DNA of 52,757 nt from Verrucomicrobiota bacterium (lineage in GTDB: Bacteria > Verrucomicrobiota > Verrucomicrobiia > Opitutales > Seribacteraceae), in contig JAOLZO010000016.1 in the NCBI GenBank assembly GCA_028343845.1, positions 1 through 52,757 of the forward strand. The letters run 5' to 3'. Under the pieces are notes generated by a model. That model was not told the DNA's origin. It worked only from the letters and a program-made list of their open reading frames with translations, and did no database searches. Position 1 is the first letter of the stretch. Every line of letters starts with the position of its first letter. This document shows positions 17,383-52,757 of the stretch, piece after piece. The position numbers and the translations under genes were made by a program.

Positions 17383-17398
17383 GCTCGGCCTACTTTTT
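17379..17398 (+). terminator. Rho-independent terminator overlapping two convergent gene ends
   Basis: GTAGGC (17379-17384) and GCCTAC (17388-17393) form a perfect 6-bp stem with a TCG loop, followed by TTTTT (17394-17398). The hairpin contains the rhomboid stop codon and the last codons and stop of the convergent metX-metW gene. It lacks a T-run for the minus strand, so it terminates mainly the plus-strand operon. Confidence 0.8.
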
Positions 17399-19192
17399 GG
17401 TAAGTTCGTATATGGCCAAGCCGGCCCGAAGGTTTGGCAAAACGGAGCATGTCTTCACCCAGTCACCCTGGTGATAGACTTTCCTTCCAATCTCGAAGGG
17501 GCGCAGATCTCCTTGGCGGTTTTTGCAAAAGTTTTCGAATTCGGAAATGGAAAAATGATTCCGAAGATCACTCTTTTCCCAGTTATCGGGATATACGTCA
17601 TTCTTGATCCTGATTCCCTTACGCAGAAAGTGAATGCGGTTACGCCAATACCCGTAGTTCACAAAACTCAAGGCAACGCGCTTGCCCACCCGGAGAGCTT
17701 CCAGAATGACCGACCCCGGTTCCGGGAGCTCCTCGATCATCCGGGAAAAGATAACCCAGTCAAAGGAATCATCCCCTAGGTTCTCCATGGCTTTGCGTAT
17801 GTCCGCTTGGTAGACCGCAACCTCACGGGCAATGCACGAAGTTGCCTTCGCCGTATCATAGTCTACCCCTAGGCCTCTCACTTGCTTGGAATCCCTCAGG
17901 TACTCCAGGAGCATCCCCCGACCGCACCCCAGGTCCAAAACACTCTCTGCGGGTTTCACCCAATGATCAATTACCTTGAAATCCGCTTCTTTCTTAACCT
18001 CATAACGATCTTCGACCTTGCGAAAGCGGTCGACGTTCTGCTCGCTCTTCTCTTTTTCATCAAGTCCATTGAGAAAAACACGCACGGCGCGGAGGAAGGA
18101 ATTGGACTGAATCAAAAAGGAATCATGTCCATGCGGGTGATCGATCTCGAGATAGGAGGCCTCCTTTCCAAGTCTATGGAGAGCCTCCACAATCAATTTG
18201 TTCTGGGCAGGCGTGTAGAGCCAATCGCTCGTAAAGGAAACGACCAGAACCCTGGCAGAAACGTCCTTAAACGAATTCTCCAACCCGTCCTCCCCGACAA
18301 GGTCAAAACGGTCGAGGGCCTTGGTCAGCTTCAGGTAGGTGTTCGCGTCAAATCGGTCAACGAATTTGGCCCCTTGGTAGTCCAGGTAGCTCTCCACGCT
18401 GAATTCAAATTTATTATTTTGAGACGCTCCGAGATCCCGTCCGAACTTTTCCTCCATTCCCTGATCCGAAAGGTAAGTAATGTGAGCCATCATCCGGGCG
18501 ACCGCCAAACCGTCCCTCGGACCTTCCCCCTCAAGATAGTTTCCGTCCTTCCATTCCTTGTCCGAGCGGATGGACCGGCGTCCAACCTCGTTAAAGGCAA
18601 TCGTTTGGGCATTGTGGCATGGCGTGGCCGCAATCACCAGAGCCCGCTTGACGAATTCGGGAAATTCAACGATCCACTGCAAGGCCTGCATCCCCCCCAT
18701 GCTTCCTCCCACGATGGCATGGAGAGATTGTATGCCGAGAGAATCCAGCAGGTGCTTTTGGGCACGCACCATATCCTTGATCGTCAAGTCCGGAAAATTC
18801 ATGCCATACGGTTTGCCGGGGGTTTGCGGATTCTCGCTGGCCGGTCCGGTCGATCCCTTGCATGCGCCCAGGCAATTCGAGCAAACCACGAAAAACTCTT
18901 CGGTATCAACAGGCTTGCCTGGGCCAACCACGTGGTCCCACCAACCAGGATGCCGGTCATCCTTTGAATAAACTCCAGCTACGTGATGATCACCGGTAAG
19001 AGCATGGCAAATGAGAATGGCATTCGTCCCGTCCTCATTCAATTTTCCGTAAGTTTCGTAAATCAGTTGGAATTTATCAAGCGCGCCGTTTTCCATTTCG
19101 AATGTCCGGTCATGCTGATAAGTTTGGGCGTTCACGACGCCAACATGCCCTTTCTCGGGATCAGGGTTTTGAAATTCGTTTGATTTGCTCAT
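17390..19192 (-). CDS. metX: Fused homoserine O-acetyltransferase MetX and methionine biosynthesis protein MetW
   Basis: Residues 1 to about 385 are an alpha/beta-hydrolase homoserine O-acyltransferase (MetX). The motifs are ALTGDHHVAG, the nucleophile elbow GGSMGGMQALQW (Ser164), CHNAQTIAFNEVGRR, and the C-terminal DHPHGHDSFL with the catalytic His. It activates homoserine for methionine synthesis. Residues about 405-600 are MetW, a SAM-methyltransferase-like protein, with VLDLGCGRGMLLEYL and VIFSRMIEELPEP. In most bacteria metX and metW are separate neighbouring genes, and MetW is required for MetX activity in some of them. Here they form one continuous frame joined by a charged linker of about 20 residues. 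No frameshift or internal stop is seen. Confidence 0.93.
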   Translation of the reverse strand: MSKSNEFQNPDPEKGHVGVVNAQTYQHDRTFEMENGALDKFQLIYETYGKLNEDGTNAILICHALTGDHHVAGVYSKDDRHPGWWDHVVGPGKPVDTEEFFVVCSNCLGACKGSTGPASENPQTPGKPYGMNFPDLTIKDMVRAQKHLLDSLGIQSLHAIVGGSMGGMQALQWIVEFPEFVKRALVIAATPCHNAQTIAFNEVGRRSIRSDKEWKDGNYLEGEGPRDGLAVARMMAHITYLSDQGMEEKFGRDLGASQNNKFEFSVESYLDYQGAKFVDRFDANTYLKLTKALDRFDLVGEDGLENSFKDVSARVLVVSFTSDWLYTPAQNKLIVEALHRLGKEASYLEIDHPHGHDSFLIQSNSFLRAVRVFLNGLDEKEKSEQNVDRFRKVEDRYEVKKEADFKVIDHWVKPAESVLDLGCGRGMLLEYLRDSKQVRGLGVDYDTAKATSCIAREVAVYQADIRKAMENLGDDSFDWVIFSRMIEELPEPGSVILEALRVGKRVALSFVNYGYWRNRIHFLRKGIRIKNDVYPDNWEKSDLRNHFSISEFENFCKNRQGDLRPFEIGRKVYHQGDWVKTCSVLPNLRAGLAIYELTKK

Positions 19193-19233: not shown

Positions 19234-19986
19234 TTAGCCGTTTATGGATTCGAGCAAAGCCTCGTCTATGTCATAATTGCTGTGCACAGCTTTCACGTCC
19301 TCGAGTTCGTCCAGGTTGTCGACGAGTTTCAGAACCTTTCGGGCAACGTCTTCATCGGTAACGGAAATCAAATTTTCCGGCAAGTACGCCAACTCGGAAG
19401 AATCCGGACTGACTTCAATTTTTTCAAAGGCATCTGCGAGCTTGTCGTACTGACTCGTCTCACAAATAACTTCATAATGATCTTTTTCCGTGATCACGTC
19501 CTCGGCATCATTTTCAAGGGCCAGTTCGGTCAAGGCATCTTCATCCATCTTGTCCCTTGCCAAGAGAAATTGCCCCTTGCGCTTGAAATTGAAGGCGAGG
19601 GCGCCTGCTCCGGCCAAATTGCCTCCGCCCTTGGAGAAAGTACTGCGTATTTCAGATGCGGAACGGTTCTTGTTATCCGTGGTAACTTCCACGATCAAAC
19701 CGACCCCTCCGGGGCCATACCCTTCGTAGAGCAGTTCCTCGATCGTAATGCCTCCCAATTCCCCCGTACCCTTCTTGACTGCCCGATCGATGTTATCGGC
19801 AGGCATATTGGCCTGCTTGGCCTTTGCAATCAAGGTGCGAAGCCGGGGGTTGAATTCCGGATCTTTTCCACTGTCCCGGGCGGCCAAGGTTATTTCCTTG
19901 CTGATCACGCTGAAAATTTTCCCGCGCTTAGCATCAACGGCGGCTTTGTGCCGCTTGGTCGTCGCCCATTTGCTGTGTCCTGACAT
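19234..19986 (-). CDS. yebC: YebC/PmpR family DNA-binding translational/transcriptional regulator
   Basis: The protein has 250 residues and the family's usual length. It begins MSGHSKWATTKRHKAAVDAKRGKIFS, the highly conserved YebC start, and continues with NMPADNIDRAVKKGTGE and YEGYGPGGVGLIVEVTTDNKNR. The family has been described both as transcriptional regulators and, more recently, as factors helping ribosomes through difficult sequences. It stands between metX-metW and yidC on the same strand with about 40-base gaps, so co-transcription is possible. Confidence 0.95.
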   Translation of the reverse strand: MSGHSKWATTKRHKAAVDAKRGKIFSVISKEITLAARDSGKDPEFNPRLRTLIAKAKQANMPADNIDRAVKKGTGELGGITIEELLYEGYGPGGVGLIVEVTTDNKNRSASEIRSTFSKGGGNLAGAGALAFNFKRKGQFLLARDKMDEDALTELALENDAEDVITEKDHYEVICETSQYDKLADAFEKIEVSPDSSELAYLPENLISVTDEDVARKVLKLVDNLDELEDVKAVHSNYDIDEALLESING

Positions 19987-20030: not shown

Positions 20031-22088
20031 TCAAGAGTGCTTATCCACCCGGTCCAGAAGAAATTGGTACGCCTTTTCCAGTCGATCTTTCTTTTCCAAG
20101 GCTTGTTCCTTCTTGGACGGACTCATTTGGGAAAGTTTGCCCTCGCTGTAATTGAGCAACCTCTCCTGATAATTTTTCTCCAACTGCTTTCCGTCGACCG
20201 GCCCCTTGGCCCGCAAACCCATCAGGTTTCTATATCTCCTTTCTTCGTCCGACAGTTCAAGCCTCGCAGGAGTTTCGTCCTCATCCTCCGATGCTGAGCC
20301 TGAATCGATGGGTTGAGCTAATTCGCTTGGCAACGGATCTCTCTTGGTAATGAGGGTCTGGAAAATCGTCATCAGGTTCTGAACGGTCCAGTAAAGAACC
20401 AAAGCGGAGGAGAAGAAGTACAAAAAGATAAGGAACATGAAGGGCATAAACCTCATCATCTTCGCGTTGATACGGGCCGCATCGCTCATATCCGGTCCCA
20501 TCTGCATGGGGTTGAGCTTCATTTGATACCATTGGGTCGCCACCATGAGAAGAGGGAGCAGATTGATGGAGAATCCTTGCTGAACGCTAATGCTATCCTG
20601 TTCGGACAAGTCCGAAGCCCAAAGGAAACTCTGTCCATAAAGCTCGGCCGCGGAGCGCAACATCCAGAACATTCCCAAAAAGATCGGGATTTGAATAAGG
20701 ATCGGCCAGCAACCGGCAAAGGGATTAACCTTGTTCTCCTTATAAAACTTCATCATCTCCTGATTGAGCTTTGAGGGATTGCCCTTGTGCTTCTCCTTGA
20801 GTTTTCCCATTGGGCCTTGCAATGCCTGCATCTTCTTTTGCGACCGGGTTGCTTTGGCGGTAAGTGGCCAGAGGAGTAACTTGACCAAGATCGTAAGCGC
20901 AATGATGGCCAAGCCATAATTGCCCAGAAAACCTCGTAGCTTATTCAGCATCCAGCTGAACGGTTCAGATATCCACCAGAATACGCCGAACTGCATGACC
21001 TTTTTCTGATCGGACCCTAGTTCGGTCAAACCGACGTAATCCTTAGGCCCTGCATAAACCTGGAATTCAAAACTCTTTGTCTGATTGGGCTGAATCAAGC
21101 CCACGGGAAAAGAGAGGCCACCTTCCACTCCTTTGATTTCTGCCTCAGGTGTGGAATCGCTTCTCTTCACGTTCCGACCGCTAACCCAAGCATTGGACAG
21201 ATCCGTCACCGGACGAACGATGCTCACGAAAAACTGATTGTTCACACATGCCCACCGGGCTAAAGAAAGCTTCCTTGTTTCCATTTTTCCGGTAGCGCCC
21301 ATTTCGTTATATTGGAAGAATTCTTCTTCCTCCCCATCGATGCGGTTACTGCATTTGGCGCAGGAGCATCCCTCAGCAAGAGGTGCTCCGGAATTGTAGT
21401 ACCCGACGTTCAAGTAAGTTTCCGATCCGTCAAATGGGTTATATAGCCTGGGAATCTGAAAGGCTGAACCGAGGTGAAGCCTTAGGCGTTCAAAAGCCAA
21501 AGGATTGGAACCCAAATTCGTAATGCTCGTCTTGTGATCAAAAACGTAAGTGCTGTTCCCCTCCCGAATGTATTCGCGCTCGATCCTCAAGGCACCTGGA
21601 GATTCCCATCGGTAAAGAACTTTACCTTGGGTTTTTTCGATCAACCGGAAGGCTCTGGGGTTTGGAATGATGCCTTTGAGTTCACGGCCATTTTCATCTT
21701 CAAAAGTGAGCGAAAGAAGAGGATCCCCCTGATGGATCATTCGATACCCCTTGCTCAGGCGATCGTGTTTATTCAGGACAACTTCGCGAAGTCCGCCCGT
21801 ATGGTTGGAAAACACGAGCGAGGAGTAGGGGGTTTCCAAAGCGGTTACGTTTTGCTCTAGTCCGAGAACAACTGGTTTTTCAACCGGAAGGACCGGTGTA
21901 GCGTTGCTCTCGGGAAAGACTGTCGGATTGGAGATCGTAACGTTTGGATCTGCGGCATTATAGGCGGGCTCTGCTGGCACGGTCCTGTTTGCGTCCTGCC
22001 TGGCCAGATCCATTTGCTGGGCACCCTGCCTCCATAACAGAAAGAAGGCCAGAACAAGAAGGATGATACCGATCAGATAATTTTTCAT
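20031..22088 (-). CDS. yidC: Membrane protein insertase YidC with an unusual J-like C-terminal extension
   Basis: YidC/OxaA inserts proteins into the inner membrane alone or with SecYEG. The 685-residue protein has an N-terminal membrane helix (residues 4-20), a large periplasmic domain, and the conserved five-helix core from about residue 360 (NYGLAIIALTILVKLLLWPL, NPFAGCWPILIQIPIFLGMFW, VQNLMTIFQTLI). Two features are odd. A CSCAKC cluster lies at about residues 240-245 of the periplasmic domain. The last roughly 70 residues (617-685) form a helix-loop-helix layout like a DnaJ J-domain, with SEG where HPD would be. It overlaps rnpA by 4 bases, and the usual yidD gene is absent between them. 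Confidence 0.95.
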   Translation of the reverse strand: MKNYLIGIILLVLAFFLLWRQGAQQMDLARQDANRTVPAEPAYNAADPNVTISNPTVFPESNATPVLPVEKPVVLGLEQNVTALETPYSSLVFSNHTGGLREVVLNKHDRLSKGYRMIHQGDPLLSLTFEDENGRELKGIIPNPRAFRLIEKTQGKVLYRWESPGALRIEREYIREGNSTYVFDHKTSITNLGSNPLAFERLRLHLGSAFQIPRLYNPFDGSETYLNVGYYNSGAPLAEGCSCAKCSNRIDGEEEEFFQYNEMGATGKMETRKLSLARWACVNNQFFVSIVRPVTDLSNAWVSGRNVKRSDSTPEAEIKGVEGGLSFPVGLIQPNQTKSFEFQVYAGPKDYVGLTELGSDQKKVMQFGVFWWISEPFSWMLNKLRGFLGNYGLAIIALTILVKLLLWPLTAKATRSQKKMQALQGPMGKLKEKHKGNPSKLNQEMMKFYKENKVNPFAGCWPILIQIPIFLGMFWMLRSAAELYGQSFLWASDLSEQDSISVQQGFSINLLPLLMVATQWYQMKLNPMQMGPDMSDAARINAKMMRFMPFMFLIFLYFFSSALVLYWTVQNLMTIFQTLITKRDPLPSELAQPIDSGSASEDEDETPARLELSDEERRYRNLMGLRAKGPVDGKQLEKNYQERLLNYSEGKLSQMSPSKKEQALEKKDRLEKAYQFLLDRVDKHS

Positions 22089-22447
22089 GATTGCGCGGAA
22101 AGCTTTCCAATCGCTCGGACAAACCTATCTTCAAAAGATGCGAAGGATGCTTTGAACATCGCCCTGCGGGGCAAAACGACAAGGTCGAAACCCTGCAAAA
22201 AAGTACTTTGGTTCCTTCGGAAAGCTTCCCGGATTATTCTCTTCGCCCGATTTCTGAGTACGGCGCAACCGAATCTTCGGGAAGCGATGATCCCAAGTTT
22301 AGGTGTATCGGGCGATTGACCGGTTTTCATCAATTGCATCCAGAAAAAATGATCCTTCAACCTCTTGCCATTCTTCTTAACGAGGCGAAACTCATAGGTC
22401 TTCCGCAGTCTCAAGTCACGCGGAAAGCGTTGGGTCGCCGACTTCAA
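22085..22447 (-). CDS. rnpA: Ribonuclease P protein component
   Basis: RnpA is the basic protein subunit that assists the RNase P RNA in maturing tRNA 5' ends. The 120-residue protein carries the N-terminal LRKTYEFRLVKKNGKR segment and the signature RFGCAVLRNRAKRIIREAFRRN. It is the middle gene of rpmH-rnpA-yidC: it starts 24 bases after rpmH and its stop codon overlaps the yidC start (ATGA). The RNase P RNA gene is not in this window. Confidence 0.94.
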   Translation of the reverse strand: MKSATQRFPRDLRLRKTYEFRLVKKNGKRLKDHFFWMQLMKTGQSPDTPKLGIIASRRFGCAVLRNRAKRIIREAFRRNQSTFLQGFDLVVLPRRAMFKASFASFEDRFVRAIGKLSAQS

Positions 22448-22873: not shown

Positions 22874-25800
22874 ATGAAGCAAAACCGCCCCCCCAGCATA
22901 CTTCTCCGCGGAGCGCGCCACAACAACCTCAAAGGCATTGACCTTGAGATTTCGCCTGGGGAACTGGTTGTTTTCACCGGACTGAGCGGCACAGGAAAGT
23001 CGACCTTGCTCTTCGACGTTCTTCATGCGGAGGGGCAGCGAAAATACGTCGAAACCTTCAGTCCGTACGTCAGGCAATTTCTAGAAACCTGCCAAAGACC
23101 GGAAGTGGACTCGATCGAAAACATACGCCCATCCATTTCCGTCGAACAAAAGAACACCATCCGTAATTCTCGTTCCACAGTAGGAACGATGACTGAAACT
23201 TGTGACTACTTCAAGGTATGGTTTCCTCTGGTGGCCAAGTTATCCGACCCCGAAAACGGCAAGCCACTGCGTTTCGAAACCTTCGAGTCTCAAGCCCGAT
23301 CAACCCTCCTGAAGTTTAGCGGGCAAAACCTCGTTATTGGCTTTCAGGCCACAAGACCTTCCGCCTTACCTCCGAATGAATTTCTAAAGTTCCTAACTCA
23401 AGCCGGACACGTGCGGTCTCTCTCAGGAAAAACCTTTCGTCGGATCGAGGACCTCATTGAAACGAAATGGCGTGAGGATTCCATATTCGTTGTAACGGAC
23501 AGGATTCCTGCAGAGAAGAAAAACAAAGGGCGATTGACCGAGGCGATTGCGAATGCCATTCGGCATGGACAGGGCCTTGCCCAAGCAAGGGATTTCAATG
23601 GCAAGTTGCTCCAAAATCTGCACGAAGGTCTGCGCTCCCCGGTTAACGGCAGGAAATTTTGCCTTCCGGTTCCGCCAGCCTTTTCCTTCAACTCACCAGT
23701 CGGAGCCTGCCCGACCTGCAAGGGTTTTGGGCGGGTGATCGAAATCGACCCTCGACTGGTAATTCCAGATGAGACGATCCCGTTATGCCAAAATGCAATC
23801 AAGGCATTTTCAGGAAAAGTATACGGACATTGCCAAAATGAGCTGGAGCTCGCATGCCGCAAGAAAGGAATAAACCTCAAAAAATCCTGGAAGCGGATTT
23901 CTCAAAAGGAACGTAATTTCATCTGGAACGGGGATCCCGAATACAAAGAGGGAAACAATAAATGGTATGGGATACAGGCTTTCTTCAACTGGTTGGAAAA
24001 GAAAACCTACAAGATGCACGTAAGAGTATACCTTTCGAAATACCGGGGCTATTTCGAATGCCCTGAATGCAAGGGGTTAAGACTCAGGGAAGAATCACTC
24101 TGCTGGAAATGGCGTTCTCTCAGCTTGCCCGAGCTTTATGCACTTCCGGTTGACGTGCTCTTCGAGAAGATCTCGAAAGTACCTCTGTCGGGAAATCAAA
24201 AACTGGATCTGCCTCTTCAAAACATTCTTTCGAGACTCAAGTACCTGAGGGAAGTCGGATTGGGCTACCTGTCTCTGAATCGTTCGGCAAGAAGCCTTAG
24301 CGGAGGCGAAACCCAAAGGGTGAATTTAACCGCATGCCTGGGCGCTTCCCTTACGGATACCCTGTTCGCATTGGACGAACCCACCATCGGTCTTCATGGC
24401 CGGGACGTCAAAAAACTGATTGGGATCCTCAGGGCTTTGGCAAATGCAGGGAATTTCGTTTGTGTTGTCGAACATGACGAACAAGTGATAAGGGCAGCGG
24501 ACAAAGTTGTGGAGATCGGACCATTGCCGGGAAAAAAAGGTGGGGAGATTTCCTTTCAGGGAACGGTTTCACAATTGCTCCGCTCCAAGAAATCACTAAC
24601 TGGTAAATGGTTGGCCAAGCGCCCGGAAGCGTTTGAGGAAATCAAGAATCCGAAGAAAACCTCCCGAAACAAATTCTTCCTCCACTTGCAGGGCTTGAGC
24701 AGGCATAACGTCAAAAAGCTGACGGCCAAACTTCCTCTTAACAAATTCGTTTGCATTGCCGGAGTTTCAGGGTCTGGAAAATCAACTCTTCTCCATGACC
24801 TCATATACGAGGAAATGTCCCGGCACCAAGAATCGAAAAGAGTGATTTCCGACCTCACCTTCTCCGAGGCGGTGATGATCGATCAAAGTTCGGTCGTCCG
24901 AACCCCGCGCTCCAATGCCGTGCTTTATTCAGATGCATGGGGGCCGATCAAGGAAGCGTTTTCCAGAACGGACGATGCCAAGCGCTTGGGGTTTTCCTCC
25001 TCGGATTTTTCTTTTAATGCAGGTAATGGACGTTGCGAAACCTGTTCGGGGCTAGGCTATGAGGTCGTTGAAATGCAATTCCTTTCCGACCTTCAGATAC
25101 CCTGTGGCGAATGCGAAGGGAAGCGCTTCAAAAAGGAGATTCTGGAAATCCAGTTGGAAGGAAGGAGCGTATCCGAAACGCTTGACCTGACGGTCGAGGA
25201 GGCCTCCGGGATTTTCCATTATTTACCCAAAACCAAAAGAAAACTCAGCGCTCTTGAAAAAGTTGGGTTGGGGTACCTGACGTTGGGCCAACCGCTGAAC
25301 ACACTCTCAGGGGGAGAATCCCAACGCCTAAAGCTCGTCAAATACATGACGGCTTTGAAAAAAGGTCTGTCTCCTTCCATTTTGCTGATTGACGAACCGA
25401 CCACCGGTTTGCACATGCAGGACGTTTGCAGGTTACTCGATTGTCTTCGCGAAGTCGTTCAAGCAGGGCATTCTCTCTTTGTCATTGAGCACAACCTGCA
25501 AGTCCTTCAAGGGTGCGAATGGATTATTGAGCTTGGGCCGGGGGCAGGTGACAAGGGAGGAAAGATAATCGCACAGGGTTCGCCCGCTTCCTTTAGCAAA
25601 CGATCTACCCCTACCTCCAAAATCCTGAAATCACCCGGTACGAATGGCTCGTCCGGAAAAAAGGAGCTTGCCCCCCAGCGATGGAGGGGCAGATCCGATT
25701 TAAAGATCCTCGGCGCCCGGGAAAACAACCTGAAAAACATAAGCCCGGACATCCCTCCAAATAAGTTTGTCGTCGTGACCGGGCCCTCGGGCTCCGGAAA

Positions 25801-28285
25801 GTCCTCACTGGCTTTCGACGTGATCTTTGCGGAGGGACAGAGACGCTTCATGGAATCCATGTCCTCCTACGCCCGACAATTCGTCGAGCAACTCAGCAAG
25901 CCCGATGTCGATGACGTAACGGGAATCTCACCGGCCGTTGCAATTGAACAAAGAGTCAACCGGGGAACCCGCAAGTCAACCGTTGGGTCAGTGACCGAAA
26001 TCGCCCAATTCCTAAGACTTCTTTACGCTCGTGTAGGAACGCAACTAAGCAGAGGAAACCAAGCCCCCTTAACGGTCAACTCCGAATCTGGCATTAGCAG
26101 GAGCCTTCGCGCCGAATGGGCCGAATGCAAGCCGAGTCCAAGAAAACCCGCACTCCTTCTCGCCCCCCTCGTATCGGATCGCAAAGGACATCACAAGCCG
26201 ATCGTAAATTGGGCTCGAGAAAAAGGATTTGAAGAAGTCCGATGCGACGGAACCTTATCCGATATAAACGAATTTCAAGGACTCGATCGCTATCGGTTGC
26301 ATAACATAGAGGGAGTGATTGGAAAATGGTCCTCATTGCCGGACGGGAAAGAACTCTTGGAAGCGACCAGAAAAGCCCTTGCTTTCGGGAAAGGCCGCTT
26401 ACTTTCCCTTTCCGGCAACGGTCAGGAACATTGGCATTCCACCTCGCGGGTAGATCCTTCCACCGGGGAAACTTATCCAGAGATCGAACCTTCCTTGCTT
26501 TCTTGGAACTCCCCAAAGGGATGGTGTCCTTTTTGCCGGGGTTATGGAAAGATTTATGAAAAGATGAAGGAGCACTTGCCGGCTAACGGAAAATGGTGGT
26601 CGCTCTCAGACGGCGAAACATGCCCAGAGTGCCAAGGCGAGCGACTGAATGAAATAAGTCGCAACATTGTCCTTAACGGCCCGAAGGGAACCCGCATGTC
26701 CCTCCCTCAAATGCTTGCTCTCACTCCTCTAGCCGTCGGGGACTTTCTCAAGAAGCTAAAGGTAGGGGAAAGCCAAGGGCCCATTGTACAAGCTATATTG
26801 CCGGAAATCCTCGAACGGTTGAGCTTTATGGGAAAGGTCGGGCTGGACTATCTTTCCCTTGATCGCGAAACTTCTTCTCTTTCCGGCGGGGAATCCCAAA
26901 GAATCCGGTTGGCCGGACAGCTCGGCTCAAACCTTTCAGGTGTTCTTTACGTGTTGGACGAGCCGTCCATCGGCCTCCACCCAAAGGACAATCAAAAGTT
27001 ATTGGAGTCCCTTCAAGATCTTAAAAACAAGGGAAATTCCCTGGTTGTGGTCGAGCATGATCAGGAAACCATATCGCAAGCGGATTACTTGATAGACATC
27101 GGGCCGGAAGCGGGCGAAAAAGGCGGCGCGATTATCGATGCGGGAAAGCCGTCAAAGGTCGCCAAGAACAGACTTTCATCCACCGCAGCCCATATGAGGG
27201 GAGGCTTCAAGCATCCACTCAAGGGAAAGTGGCGAGGGGTGCCTGTCAAAAGTAAGGAGAATTGGCTTTGCCTCTCTGGCGTGACCTTTAGAAATCTCAA
27301 GAATTTATCCATACGAATCCCTTTACAACGGCTGACTGTTTGCTGCGGGGTCTCCGGATCCGGAAAATCATCCCTTGTTCGTGGTGTAATGCTCGAAGAA
27401 GTCAAACGCTCTCTTGCCCAGAACAAAGATCTCATCCATGAACCTCAATATTGCCTGAAAAACGGAAGTTCCTTTAATCGCGCCATTGAAGTCACCCAAG
27501 ACCCAATTGGAAAAACATCCAGGTCAACCCCGGCAACTTATCTCGGGGTTTGGGACAGAATCAGGACCTTGATTGCATCGCTTCCAGAAGCAAAGAGAAA
27601 GGGTTTGGGTCCGAGTGACTTTTCTTACAACGTAAAAGGAGGAAGGTGTGAAATTTGCAAGGGGGCGGGGAAGGTAAAGATAGAGATGAACTTTTTACCC
27701 AATTCATACGTCCCCTGCGAGGAATGCGGTGGGAAGAGGTATCGGGATCAAGTTTTGGAGCTCGAATGGAACGGAAAGAACATAGCAGACATCCTTGATT
27801 TCACTTTCGAACAGGCTACTGCATTTTTTGCCTTCGATCACTACTTGAGAGACACCTTCTCCCTTATGGTTGAGACCGGCCTTGGCTACTTGAGGCTCGG
27901 ACAGATTTCACCCACCTTGTCAGGAGGTGAGGCCCAACGCCTAAAGCTTGCCTCGGAACTCGCCCGCGGGATCGACAAAGGCAAACACGGGCGTAAACCA
28001 AGATCCAAGCCAAACCTTTACGTCCTTGAAGAACCCACTATCGGACTACATCCATCCGACACCCTCAAACTGATCAAGATGCTACATCGTATCGTGGACG
28101 AAGGAAACACAGTCGTCGTGATTGAGCACGACGTGGATGTGATCGCCGAAGGCGATTACCTGATCGAGCTAGGTCCGGAGGGGGGAGAAAAAGGGGGATT
28201 CTTACTTCATCAAGGAACGGTTCGGCAAACCCTGACCAACAAGAAAAGCAAGACGGCTCCCTTTCTCCAGGATAGGTTAGGCTAG
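22874..28285 (+). CDS. uvrA: Excinuclease ABC subunit A, tandem-duplicated (double UvrA)
   Basis: UvrA finds DNA damage for nucleotide excision repair and loads UvrB. Normal UvrA has about 940 residues and two ABC modules; this one has 1,803 residues and four. Walker A motifs lie near residues 37 (GLSGTGKST), 629 (GVSGSGKST), 968 (GPSGSGKSS) and 1492 (GVSGSGKSS), each with its own SGGE-QR signature and DEP/EEP Walker B. Zinc-finger CxxC pairs occur in all four modules, for example CPTC near 279. The two halves, about 1-920 and 940-1803, are clearly divergent. Chlamydial UvrA has the same double layout. The last Walker B reads LEEPTIG instead of LDEPTIG. The gene ends 4 bases inside convergent tyrS. 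Confidence 0.96.
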
Positions 28286-50627: not shown

Positions 50628-52562
50628 ATGCTTAAACAGACCCTGTTCCTTTCCTTCGTCTTGGCTCTTTTTGTTTCGGGCTCTCATGGCGAGAGTCCCG
50701 AAAGCCTCCGTTTCGCCAAGATTTTAAGCGATAATGTCGTCCTGCAACAGGACAAGCCGATCACCGTTTGGGGTTGGGGTAAACCGGGAACTCAAGTTGA
50801 GGTGACCCTTACTCAAGATGCGACCACTGGACATAAGGCCGAGACCGAGGCCGATCTGGAGACCAAGCAGGATGAAAGCGACGACTACTCGGTCAGCGTG
50901 CGCTACTTGGAGAAGAACCCGCCGCGCCTGCAGGAGAAGAACCTGTCCGCTCAGATAGACAAGCAAGGGCGCTGGTCGGTTTCCTTTCCTCCGGCCAAGG
51001 CCAGTTTTAAGCCGACTTGGTTGATCGCCCGCGGAGGTGACGAAACGGTTGTGGTCCGCAACGCACTGATCGGCGAAGTCTGGATTTGCGCCGGACAGAG
51101 CAACATGGGCTGGAGCAACTTCAACCGCAAGGCACGGGAAGGGGCCTCGGCCGACTTTCCTGGTCTGCGCTACGTGGCGTGGGAGGATTCTTGGTACAAG
51201 CCGCTGGACGAGGTCCGCAATAAAATTGGCTGGAAGGAATGCACGCCGGAGAATACCCAACGCTTTTCCGCCGTGCCTTACCTCTTTGGCACTTTTCTTC
51301 ATCGCTACCTAAAGGTCCCCGTTGGCATCATCAACGTAGCCCGTGGCGGCACCCTCGGGCAGACTTGGTGCCTGCGTAGCGAACTGAAGTCCATCGACGA
51401 CAAGATCATCAAGACCGTGCTGGCAGACTATGATGCCGAAACCGCTGTCTGGGACGACCCCAAACAGGTTGCCGCTCTCATGAAGCAATGGGAACGGGAT
51501 TGCGACAAAGCCAAAAAAGAGCACGAAGGCAAGATTGCCAAGGCTAAGGCCGAGGGCAAGAAGCCCCCCCGATTGCGTCTGCCCAAACAACCCGGAGACG
51601 CCAGGAGCGCCTGGAGCCCACCGGCCGGACTCTTCAACGCCACCGTGATGCCGATTCGCGATCTCGCCTTGCGCGGGGTGCTCTACTACCAAGGCGAGAA
51701 CAACAACTTCATGCGCTGGACCCGTTACGAGCGCACTTTCCCCAAGGTGCCGGTCTCCTTTCGCAAAGCCTTTCGCGACGCCACCCTGCAAGCCCGCTAC
51801 CTTAGGGGAGCGTTCTTTGACAAACCCTTCACCATCGGCAAATACGAAGGCGCGCGCACACGCGTCGCCATTGCCGAGTTGGCTGCCAACGGAGGAGCGC
51901 CCATGGGTTTCTATGCGCGGTTCAGCGATCCCGCTGCCCGCGAAGTGTTCGCACGCTACTATCAATTCATCCATCGCAATGATAACCTTTTCCGTGGCAA
52001 CTCCCCTTACGCCGAGGCGCTTCTTCTCTTCCCCCGGAAAGCAATTCGTCAAGGCACCCTCGAACCCTTGGACGTCTTCCGCAAGCTTGGCAGAAAGCTA
52101 TTGGACCGACATATCCTGTTCGACGTTCTGCCCGACGACTTGGCGACGCCGGAAATACTGGCCAAGTACCAAGCCAAAATTGATCCTATCCGGGGCTCAT
52201 TGCCTTCAGGAGTCGGGTTCAGCCGCTTTGACGCGCCCCCTACCTTGCGCGTATGCGCCAACCGTCCGGCCAAGGGAAATGAAATCGATCTGCACTTTGT
52301 CAACTATGATCGAGACGAACTCCCCAAGCGAGCCAACGGCAAACCAAATCCTGGCCGTGGCCCTGCCGATGAAAGGCCCAAGGCCGTGTCGGGAGCCGAG
52401 GTGTCCTTCGTTCTTCCGGCGGGGGTAAAGGTTAGCGAGGTGGAAGTGATCTCGCCGGAATACGAGAAACCTCTCCATCCCGACTTTCGATTTACCGATG
52501 GCAGAATCTCCTTCACCATGCCCAAATTCCTCGTCTACGCAGTAGCCAGGCTGAAGCCTTAG
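50628..52562 (+). CDS. Apparent chimera: sialate O-acetylesterase N-terminal part joined to a different C-terminal region
   Basis: The 644-residue protein has a signal peptide. Up to about residue 385 it is a SASA-type sialate O-acetylesterase: AKILSDNVVLQQDKPITVWGWG, WICAGQSNMGWS with the nucleophile Ser, GIINVARGG and RGVLYYQGENN. After FPKVPVSFRKAFRDA the expected continuation, with the catalytic Asp-x-x-His, does not come. Instead it reads AIAELAANGGAPMGFYARFSDP, AEALLLFPR and LLDRHILFDVLPDDLATPE. This looks to me like the C-terminal part of a glycoside-hydrolase-like protein with a trimerisation-type domain. The frame stays open. G+C is clearly higher than in the neighbours (70% by hand count at 51601-51660). 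It may be a recombination product, a novel fusion, or an assembly join. Confidence 0.75.
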   Translation: MLKQTLFLSFVLALFVSGSHGESPESLRFAKILSDNVVLQQDKPITVWGWGKPGTQVEVTLTQDATTGHKAETEADLETKQDESDDYSVSVRYLEKNPPRLQEKNLSAQIDKQGRWSVSFPPAKASFKPTWLIARGGDETVVVRNALIGEVWICAGQSNMGWSNFNRKAREGASADFPGLRYVAWEDSWYKPLDEVRNKIGWKECTPENTQRFSAVPYLFGTFLHRYLKVPVGIINVARGGTLGQTWCLRSELKSIDDKIIKTVLADYDAETAVWDDPKQVAALMKQWERDCDKAKKEHEGKIAKAKAEGKKPPRLRLPKQPGDARSAWSPPAGLFNATVMPIRDLALRGVLYYQGENNNFMRWTRYERTFPKVPVSFRKAFRDATLQARYLRGAFFDKPFTIGKYEGARTRVAIAELAANGGAPMGFYARFSDPAAREVFARYYQFIHRNDNLFRGNSPYAEALLLFPRKAIRQGTLEPLDVFRKLGRKLLDRHILFDVLPDDLATPEILAKYQAKIDPIRGSLPSGVGFSRFDAPPTLRVCANRPAKGNEIDLHFVNYDRDELPKRANGKPNPGRGPADERPKAVSGAEVSFVLPAGVKVSEVEVISPEYEKPLHPDFRFTDGRISFTMPKFLVYAVARLKP

Positions 52563-52623
52563 CCGGTTCCGGCAACGATCGAGATCATAAATTCACAAGG
52601 TCCTGCGGCGCTCAAACAAGGGA

Positions 52624-52757
52624 TTACTTCTTGCGCATTCCCTTGAGGCTTGCCCTCATGGCATCCAGCTTCGGAAGCAATTCGGGATCATGGTCCTTGA
52701 GTTGGCGGGAAAGCCAGGCATCGGTCTCGAACTCTTCGAGGATGGAGTCGATGCGGA
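52624..52757 (-). CDS. C-terminal end of a gene cut by the right edge
   Basis: Reading the minus strand from the edge gives 44 codons ending at TAA (52624-52626). The end is RIDSILEEFETDAWLSRQLKDHD and then LLPKLDAMRASLKGMRKK. The sequence is helical and charged with a basic terminus. The family cannot be recognised from this fragment, and it is also possible that the frame is accidental. It is convergent with the chimeric esterase gene, with 61 bases between the stop codons. A small hairpin GCCG-GTTC-CGGC lies at 52563-52574. Confidence 0.5.
   Translation of the reverse strand, partial: RIDSILEEFETDAWLSRQLKDHDPELLPKLDAMRASLKGMRKK

Follow-up and report, generated by a model that had tools for sequence, protein, structure and literature searches.

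Does the membrane protein insertase YidC of an Opitutales bacterium end in a J-domain that has lost its His-Pro-Asp (HPD) motif, and what would such a domain do once the motif is gone? The question is raised by yidC in a window of 52,757 nucleotides, the whole stretch of DNA analyzed here (contig JAOLZO010000016.1, from a Verrucomicrobiota genome of the family Seribacteraceae that is 63.7% complete). An initial annotation, drawn from the sequence alone, held that residues 617-685 and the stop codon, at 20031..20240, form a J-domain-like extension with SEG where HPD would stand. The stretch lies where it was placed, and structure prediction, fold comparison, profile searches, and relatives that keep HPD bear the proposal out. 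The tail of the window YidC is almost certainly a J-domain by ancestry. As an overall explanation, the fusion would first have brought DnaK to the insertase, and the J-fold would have become a docking module after HPD was lost; this reading is favored with a probability of roughly 0.6.

Predicted fold of the YidC tail

The window protein contains both the core and the periplasmic domain of a YidC/Oxa1 insertase. The core match, Pfam 60KD_IMP (PF02096), spans residues 391-583 with an expectation value (E) of 6.5e-58; the periplasmic domain matches YidC_periplas (PF14849) at E 3.7e-14, and the protein scores 207.6 bits against NCBIfam TIGR03592 (cut-off 84.3). An acidic linker with a net charge of -6 leads from the last membrane helix to the tail. 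AlphaFold2 predicts a confident J-fold for the tail (model mfe42da0abb5d; predicted local distance difference test, pLDDT, 91.8), with the antiparallel helix II/III hairpin that the annotation had expected of a true J-domain and a packed helix I. The nearest solved structures to this model are J-domains, HscB first. The full-length model is poor overall (pLDDT 66.2; predicted template modeling score, pTM, 0.52), and residues 544-611, part of the core among them, fall under a pLDDT of 50. The J-tail nevertheless folds in it, in a placement relative to the core that is meaningless. The features of the gene are as follows.

20031..22088, reverse strand: yidC, insertase of membrane proteins, fused at its C-terminus to a J-domain, 685 amino acids (open reading frame, Pfam, NCBIfam)
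20253..20342, reverse strand: acidic, variable linker from the last membrane helix to the J-domain, residues ~583-612 (low pLDDT, charge, codon comparison)
20037..20252, reverse strand: J-domain fold without HPD, residues 613-684 (AlphaFold2, fold comparison, profile matches)
20223..20249, reverse strand: J helix I, residues 614-622 (DSSP of the models)
20148..20192, reverse strand: J helix II, residues 633-647 (DSSP of the models)
20139..20147, reverse strand: SEG at the HPD position, residues 648-650 (alignment A1, in which L023-L026 and L029 have HPD at this site)
20037..20120, reverse strand: J helix III, residues 657-684 (DSSP of the models)

Homology to J-domains

The window sequence by itself finds no J-domain in Pfam; the identity of the domain is settled by evidence from its family. 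A scan of a genome collection returned 62 loci, among which L001-L035 are close Verrucomicrobiota relatives. The tail is reached in 34 of these 35, and those 34 tails are alike; L032 stops at residue 469 at a contig end, so that its tail is unreadable, and L036-L062, which are partial core matches, were left out. Removal of near-copies gave 35 distinct family tails, the window's included, with HPD in five and absent from 30. The five (L023-L026 and L029) read YHPDK or FHPDK at the aligned site, which answers affirmatively the annotation's question of whether any relatives keep the motif. By reading SEG there, the window protein lacks the mark of a class C J-domain protein that functions as an Hsp70 co-chaperone. 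Alignments A1 and A3 omit L022, the tail of which has ambiguous bases, and 26 of the 35 distinct sequences make up A2.

Two lines of sequence evidence establish J-domain homology for the family. First, three relatives are at or over the cut-off of the Pfam DnaJ model (PF00226, 27.8 bits): the YidCs of G227 and G197 score 36.3 and 32.3 bits, and that of G198 scores 27.4 bits, or 27.8 with its neighbors in frame. Those of G200 and G196 fall slightly under it, at 27.4 and 27.3 bits. Second, A3, a profile of the 29 HPD-less tails alone that was built so that the HPD rows could not carry the result, leads to HscB. Its top two matches among PDB sequences are HscB of E. coli (1fpo, E 0.0017) and of V. 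cholerae (4it5, E 0.0034); after these, up to E 1, only a DevR response regulator follows, twice (E 0.2 and 0.33). Against the host genome, at E up to 10, A3 returns YidC, one J-domain protein (E 9.9e-5), and no other. Searched singly at E up to 0.1, the HPD-less tails match NCBIfam ActJ in 26 of 29 cases, three HscB models in 21, 19, and 18, and DjlA in 3; eight other Pfam families listed for these tails were each matched by one member.

Some results weigh against this identification. Pfam gives no DnaJ match for the whole window protein or for its tail alone, and at E up to 0.1 Pfam DnaJ is found in just 5 of the 29 HPD-less tails, the best at 1.8e-4. The wider profile A1, which includes the HPD rows, places five J-domain proteins of the PDB ahead of a DevR response regulator at E 0.017. 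In NCBIfam the window tail matches ActJ (E 0.0019) and HscB (E 0.0025), far under the curated cut-offs of those models. The annotation would have been abandoned had no profile hit been found; that absence is real for the window sequence alone in Pfam and does not extend to the family.

Distribution and history of the fusion

The tail is a constant feature of YidC in the host family, a family of marine bacteria. Among the 42 family genomes searched, 35 have a YidC match that runs into the tail. In one more the YidC breaks off at residue 469, and the other six have no YidC match (four without any match and two with a separate J-protein only). The tail is thus present in 35/35 family YidCs that do not end before it, a count that rests on this search and not on the 35-row distinct set, which was filtered for alignments reaching residue 660. 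In a sample of 273 genomes of the order, the tail profile matches 42 at E up to 0.001, of which 33 belong to the family; no YidC-length frame outside the family has a match, and the other nine, of 146-386 amino acids, are too short for a YidC-J fusion. A phylum sample gives 16 matches in 288 genomes: one is the host genome itself, and the other 15 lie in frames of 138-362 amino acids, again with no YidC-length match outside the family. The fusion is therefore seen in this Opitutales family only, although such a profile could overlook fusions in other groups if their J-domain were of a dissimilar kind.

The history of the fusion was read from a tree of the insertase core, from which linker and tail had been removed (35 family rows, 12 outgroup rows). 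The 30 HPD-less rows form one clade (100/99; 100% of 200 bootstrap trees), outside which the HPD-bearing rows branch off, L029 first and L023-L026 next. L029 is a long branch, and its joining with the outgroup is possibly false, as the tool warns. The simplest history, and very probably the right one, is a single gain of a J-domain with HPD followed by a single loss of HPD. The loss would fall in the common ancestor of genera g1, that of the window, and g112; HPD is kept in the other two of the four family genera, g113 and g114.

In a tree of J-domains, the 15 of 35 YidC tails that were included group together (100/94), apart from the DnaJ, DjlA-like, and L064-type J-proteins of the family, labels that were assigned by eye. 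The deep forks of this tree (76 columns) are weak and its bootstrap is not settled, leaving the donor of the fused domain without assignment. Two loci of genus g114 (L132 and L134) encode a J-protein of 117-119 amino acids with one N-terminal hydrophobic stretch that is very like the YidC tail. A J-protein of this type is a possible donor type for the fusion.

Selection on the HPD-less domain

The HPD-less J-domain is under purifying selection, though it is constrained less than the HPD-bearing form. Across five independent HPD-less pairs, the ratio of nonsynonymous to synonymous differences per site (pN/pS) of the J part is 0.166 (57 nonsynonymous at 886 sites, 85 synonymous at 218; Fisher 2.1e-30). 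Of the four regions compared in these pairs, the linker (residues 584-611) has the largest ratio, 0.355, and the periplasmic domain and the insertase core have 0.112 and 0.032. The HPD-bearing J part gives 0.034 in two pairs that stem from an unresolved fork and possibly share branches. These seven pairs form the main codon comparison; its five HPD-less pairs are all among 14 single pairs also computed, the rest of which are partly saturated at synonymous sites or share branches. Neutral decay of the HPD-less tail was considered and is rejected on this comparison. At the protein level, ten columns are invariant across all 29 HPD-less rows, and seven A1 columns (12, 27, 37, 46, 50, 51, and 74) are fixed or nearly so, in at least 26 of 29, to residues differing from those of the HPD rows.

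Function of the domain and competing explanations

The C-terminus of YidC is cytosolic, as is established for YidC generally, and because of this the ancestral tail would have recruited DnaK. DnaK and YidC are reportedly linked in tail-anchored protein biogenesis, to go by the title of a 2018 study by Peschke. DnaK is the sole Hsp70 that a search of the host genome recovers with a limit of E 1e-20, and a DnaK-type match at this threshold occurs in 36 of 42 family genomes, including 14/14 of the more complete, clean ones. Through the ancestral HPD domain, DnaK would have been brought to membrane proteins that were nascent or only partly inserted, an arrangement like that of Sec63 but on the cytosolic side. 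In the lineage of the window, the HPD-less domain would no longer stimulate Hsp70; since the motif is lost while the domain remains under selection, the domain probably has a different job now. Today the J-fold most likely provides the insertase with a non-catalytic docking module, which would pair with another J-protein in the manner of Pam16 and Pam18 or bind a ribosome-side or client-side partner. Docking by such a module is plausible, and the odds are about even that docking, not Hsp70 stimulation, is the role of the domain in this lineage today.

A candidate for the first kind of partner exists in the host genome. Besides DnaJ and a DjlA-like J-protein, which family genomes also encode, there is an HPD-bearing J-protein (L064; G000:C13, about 52474-52671, reverse strand) that by eye has hydrophobic stretches toward the N-terminus, then an acidic linker rich in glutamate, and at the C-terminus a J-domain with HPD (Pfam DnaJ, E 4e-10). 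Similar proteins occur in all four family genera, and L064 is the best host match to the YidC tail profiles after YidC itself. By analogy with the Pam16/Pam18 motor, the YidC HPD-less J-domain might pair with an L064-type membrane J-protein and so station DnaK at the insertase, the YidCs of g113 and g114 representing the one-protein ancestral state; such an arrangement is a speculative version of the docking reading and a rather unlikely one. Loss of the stand-alone J-protein was also considered as a correlate of HPD loss and rejected, as the L064-type J-protein accompanies both tail types.

The main rival to docking holds that the tail is mainly ribosome-binding, the J-fold having replaced the basic tail of other YidCs in the class and HPD having been lost since Hsp70 was not the main partner. 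The YidC tails that were read in other families are indeed basic, and none has HPD. A first set of 20 rows (19 genomes), of 12-36 amino acids, carries a net charge of +3 to +9, and eight more, of 36-58 amino acids, carry +5 to +11. The latter are the readable ones among the ten other-family YidCs with the furthest-running alignments (L209 and L211 were not cut out by the motif). The J part is likewise basic, at +10 to +13 in the five HPD rows and +6.5 on average (range -1 to +11) in the 30 HPD-less rows. However, this lower mean in the HPD-less rows is the opposite of what a gain of ribosome binding would bring, and because the J part of the window is at +5 and its linker at -6, the whole extension is about neutral. 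Ribosome binding as the principal role is unlikely, with something like one chance in four left to it.

Less probable again is that the HPD-less domain still cooperates with DnaK by some non-standard mechanism. Of the 29 HPD-less rows, 27 keep Y25 and 19 keep K26 in helix II, and in all 29 the residue after the motif position is K or R (residues numbered as in E. coli DnaJ). Against this, H33 has become S, T, or E in 29/29, P34 is left in only three rows, and D35 in one; R27 is E in 22/29, though R is also absent there in four of the five HPD rows. According to the available parts of a 2026 review, even conservative changes to HPD suffice to abolish Hsp70 stimulation (PMC13254874).

A decaying relic without function would account for the pN/pS of the HPD-less form exceeding that of the HPD-bearing one, but the strong purifying selection, the retention of the tail across the family, and the invariant and newly fixed columns make it very improbable. 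A last rival, which the silence of Pfam on the window tail might suggest, takes the likeness to J-domains for an accident of a helical hairpin that has no relation to them. It is rejected because HPD appears in homologous tails that occupy this position, three of which reach or exceed the Pfam DnaJ cut-off, and its probability is negligible.

Genomic neighborhood

In the window, yidC is flanked by rnpA (22085-22447) and yebC (19234-19986). Further along, 17390-19192 (reverse strand) encodes a 600-amino acid protein in which an alpha/beta hydrolase, read as MetX-like, occupies residues 57-360 and is fused to MetW at 403-596. At 22874-28285 (forward strand) lies a UvrA-like protein of 1803 amino acids, about double length, with UvrA_inter in two stretches and UvrA_DNA-bind and ABC_tran matches.

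Relation to known systems and significance

Several known systems share parts of this architecture. S. mutans YidC1 and YidC2, as well as Alb3, combine an insertase core with a partner-binding C-terminal tail. The S. mutans tails interact with DnaK and, in the available text, are described as positively charged (PMC8546722), whereas the tail here is a predicted folded J-domain; the Alb3 tail is bound by the cpSRP43 chromodomain, as a paper title states, and no folded J-domain features in either description. Sec63 resembles the HPD-bearing relatives only, in that its J-domain recruits Hsp70 at a translocation machine, according to the accessible portion of PMC13261788. Sec63 is a separate subunit that recruits ER-lumenal BiP, whereas here the J-domain lies within the insertase, probably on the cytosolic side, and the window copy is without HPD. 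Pam16 (Tim16) of the mitochondrial import motor, a known HPD-less J-domain and the partner of Pam18, offers the likeness of an HPD-less J-fold at a translocase (PMC13254874, in part). The closest J-domains by profile and fold, those of HscB, DjlA, AtcJ/ActJ, and small membrane-anchored bacterial J-proteins, are unfused to an insertase, and those aligned from family genomes carry HPD.

No paper found in the open-access literature, which defined the scope of the search to the exclusion of subscription papers, names a YidC-J-domain fusion. YidC tails, translocon J-domains, and pseudo-J-domains are known as parts; their combination and the traceable loss of HPD look new. The published DnaK-YidC link, in the accessible text on S. 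mutans, is an interaction of separate proteins (PMC8546722), whereas in this family an Hsp70 co-chaperone domain is, now or formerly, hard-wired to the membrane insertase. Whether HPD-less J-domains are evolutionary accidents or products of selection is left unresolved in the available parts of the 2026 review (PMC13254874). Because some members bear HPD, the motif was probably lost once, and the clade without it is under constraint, the YidC of this family allows accident and selection to be tested against each other in one orthologous protein.
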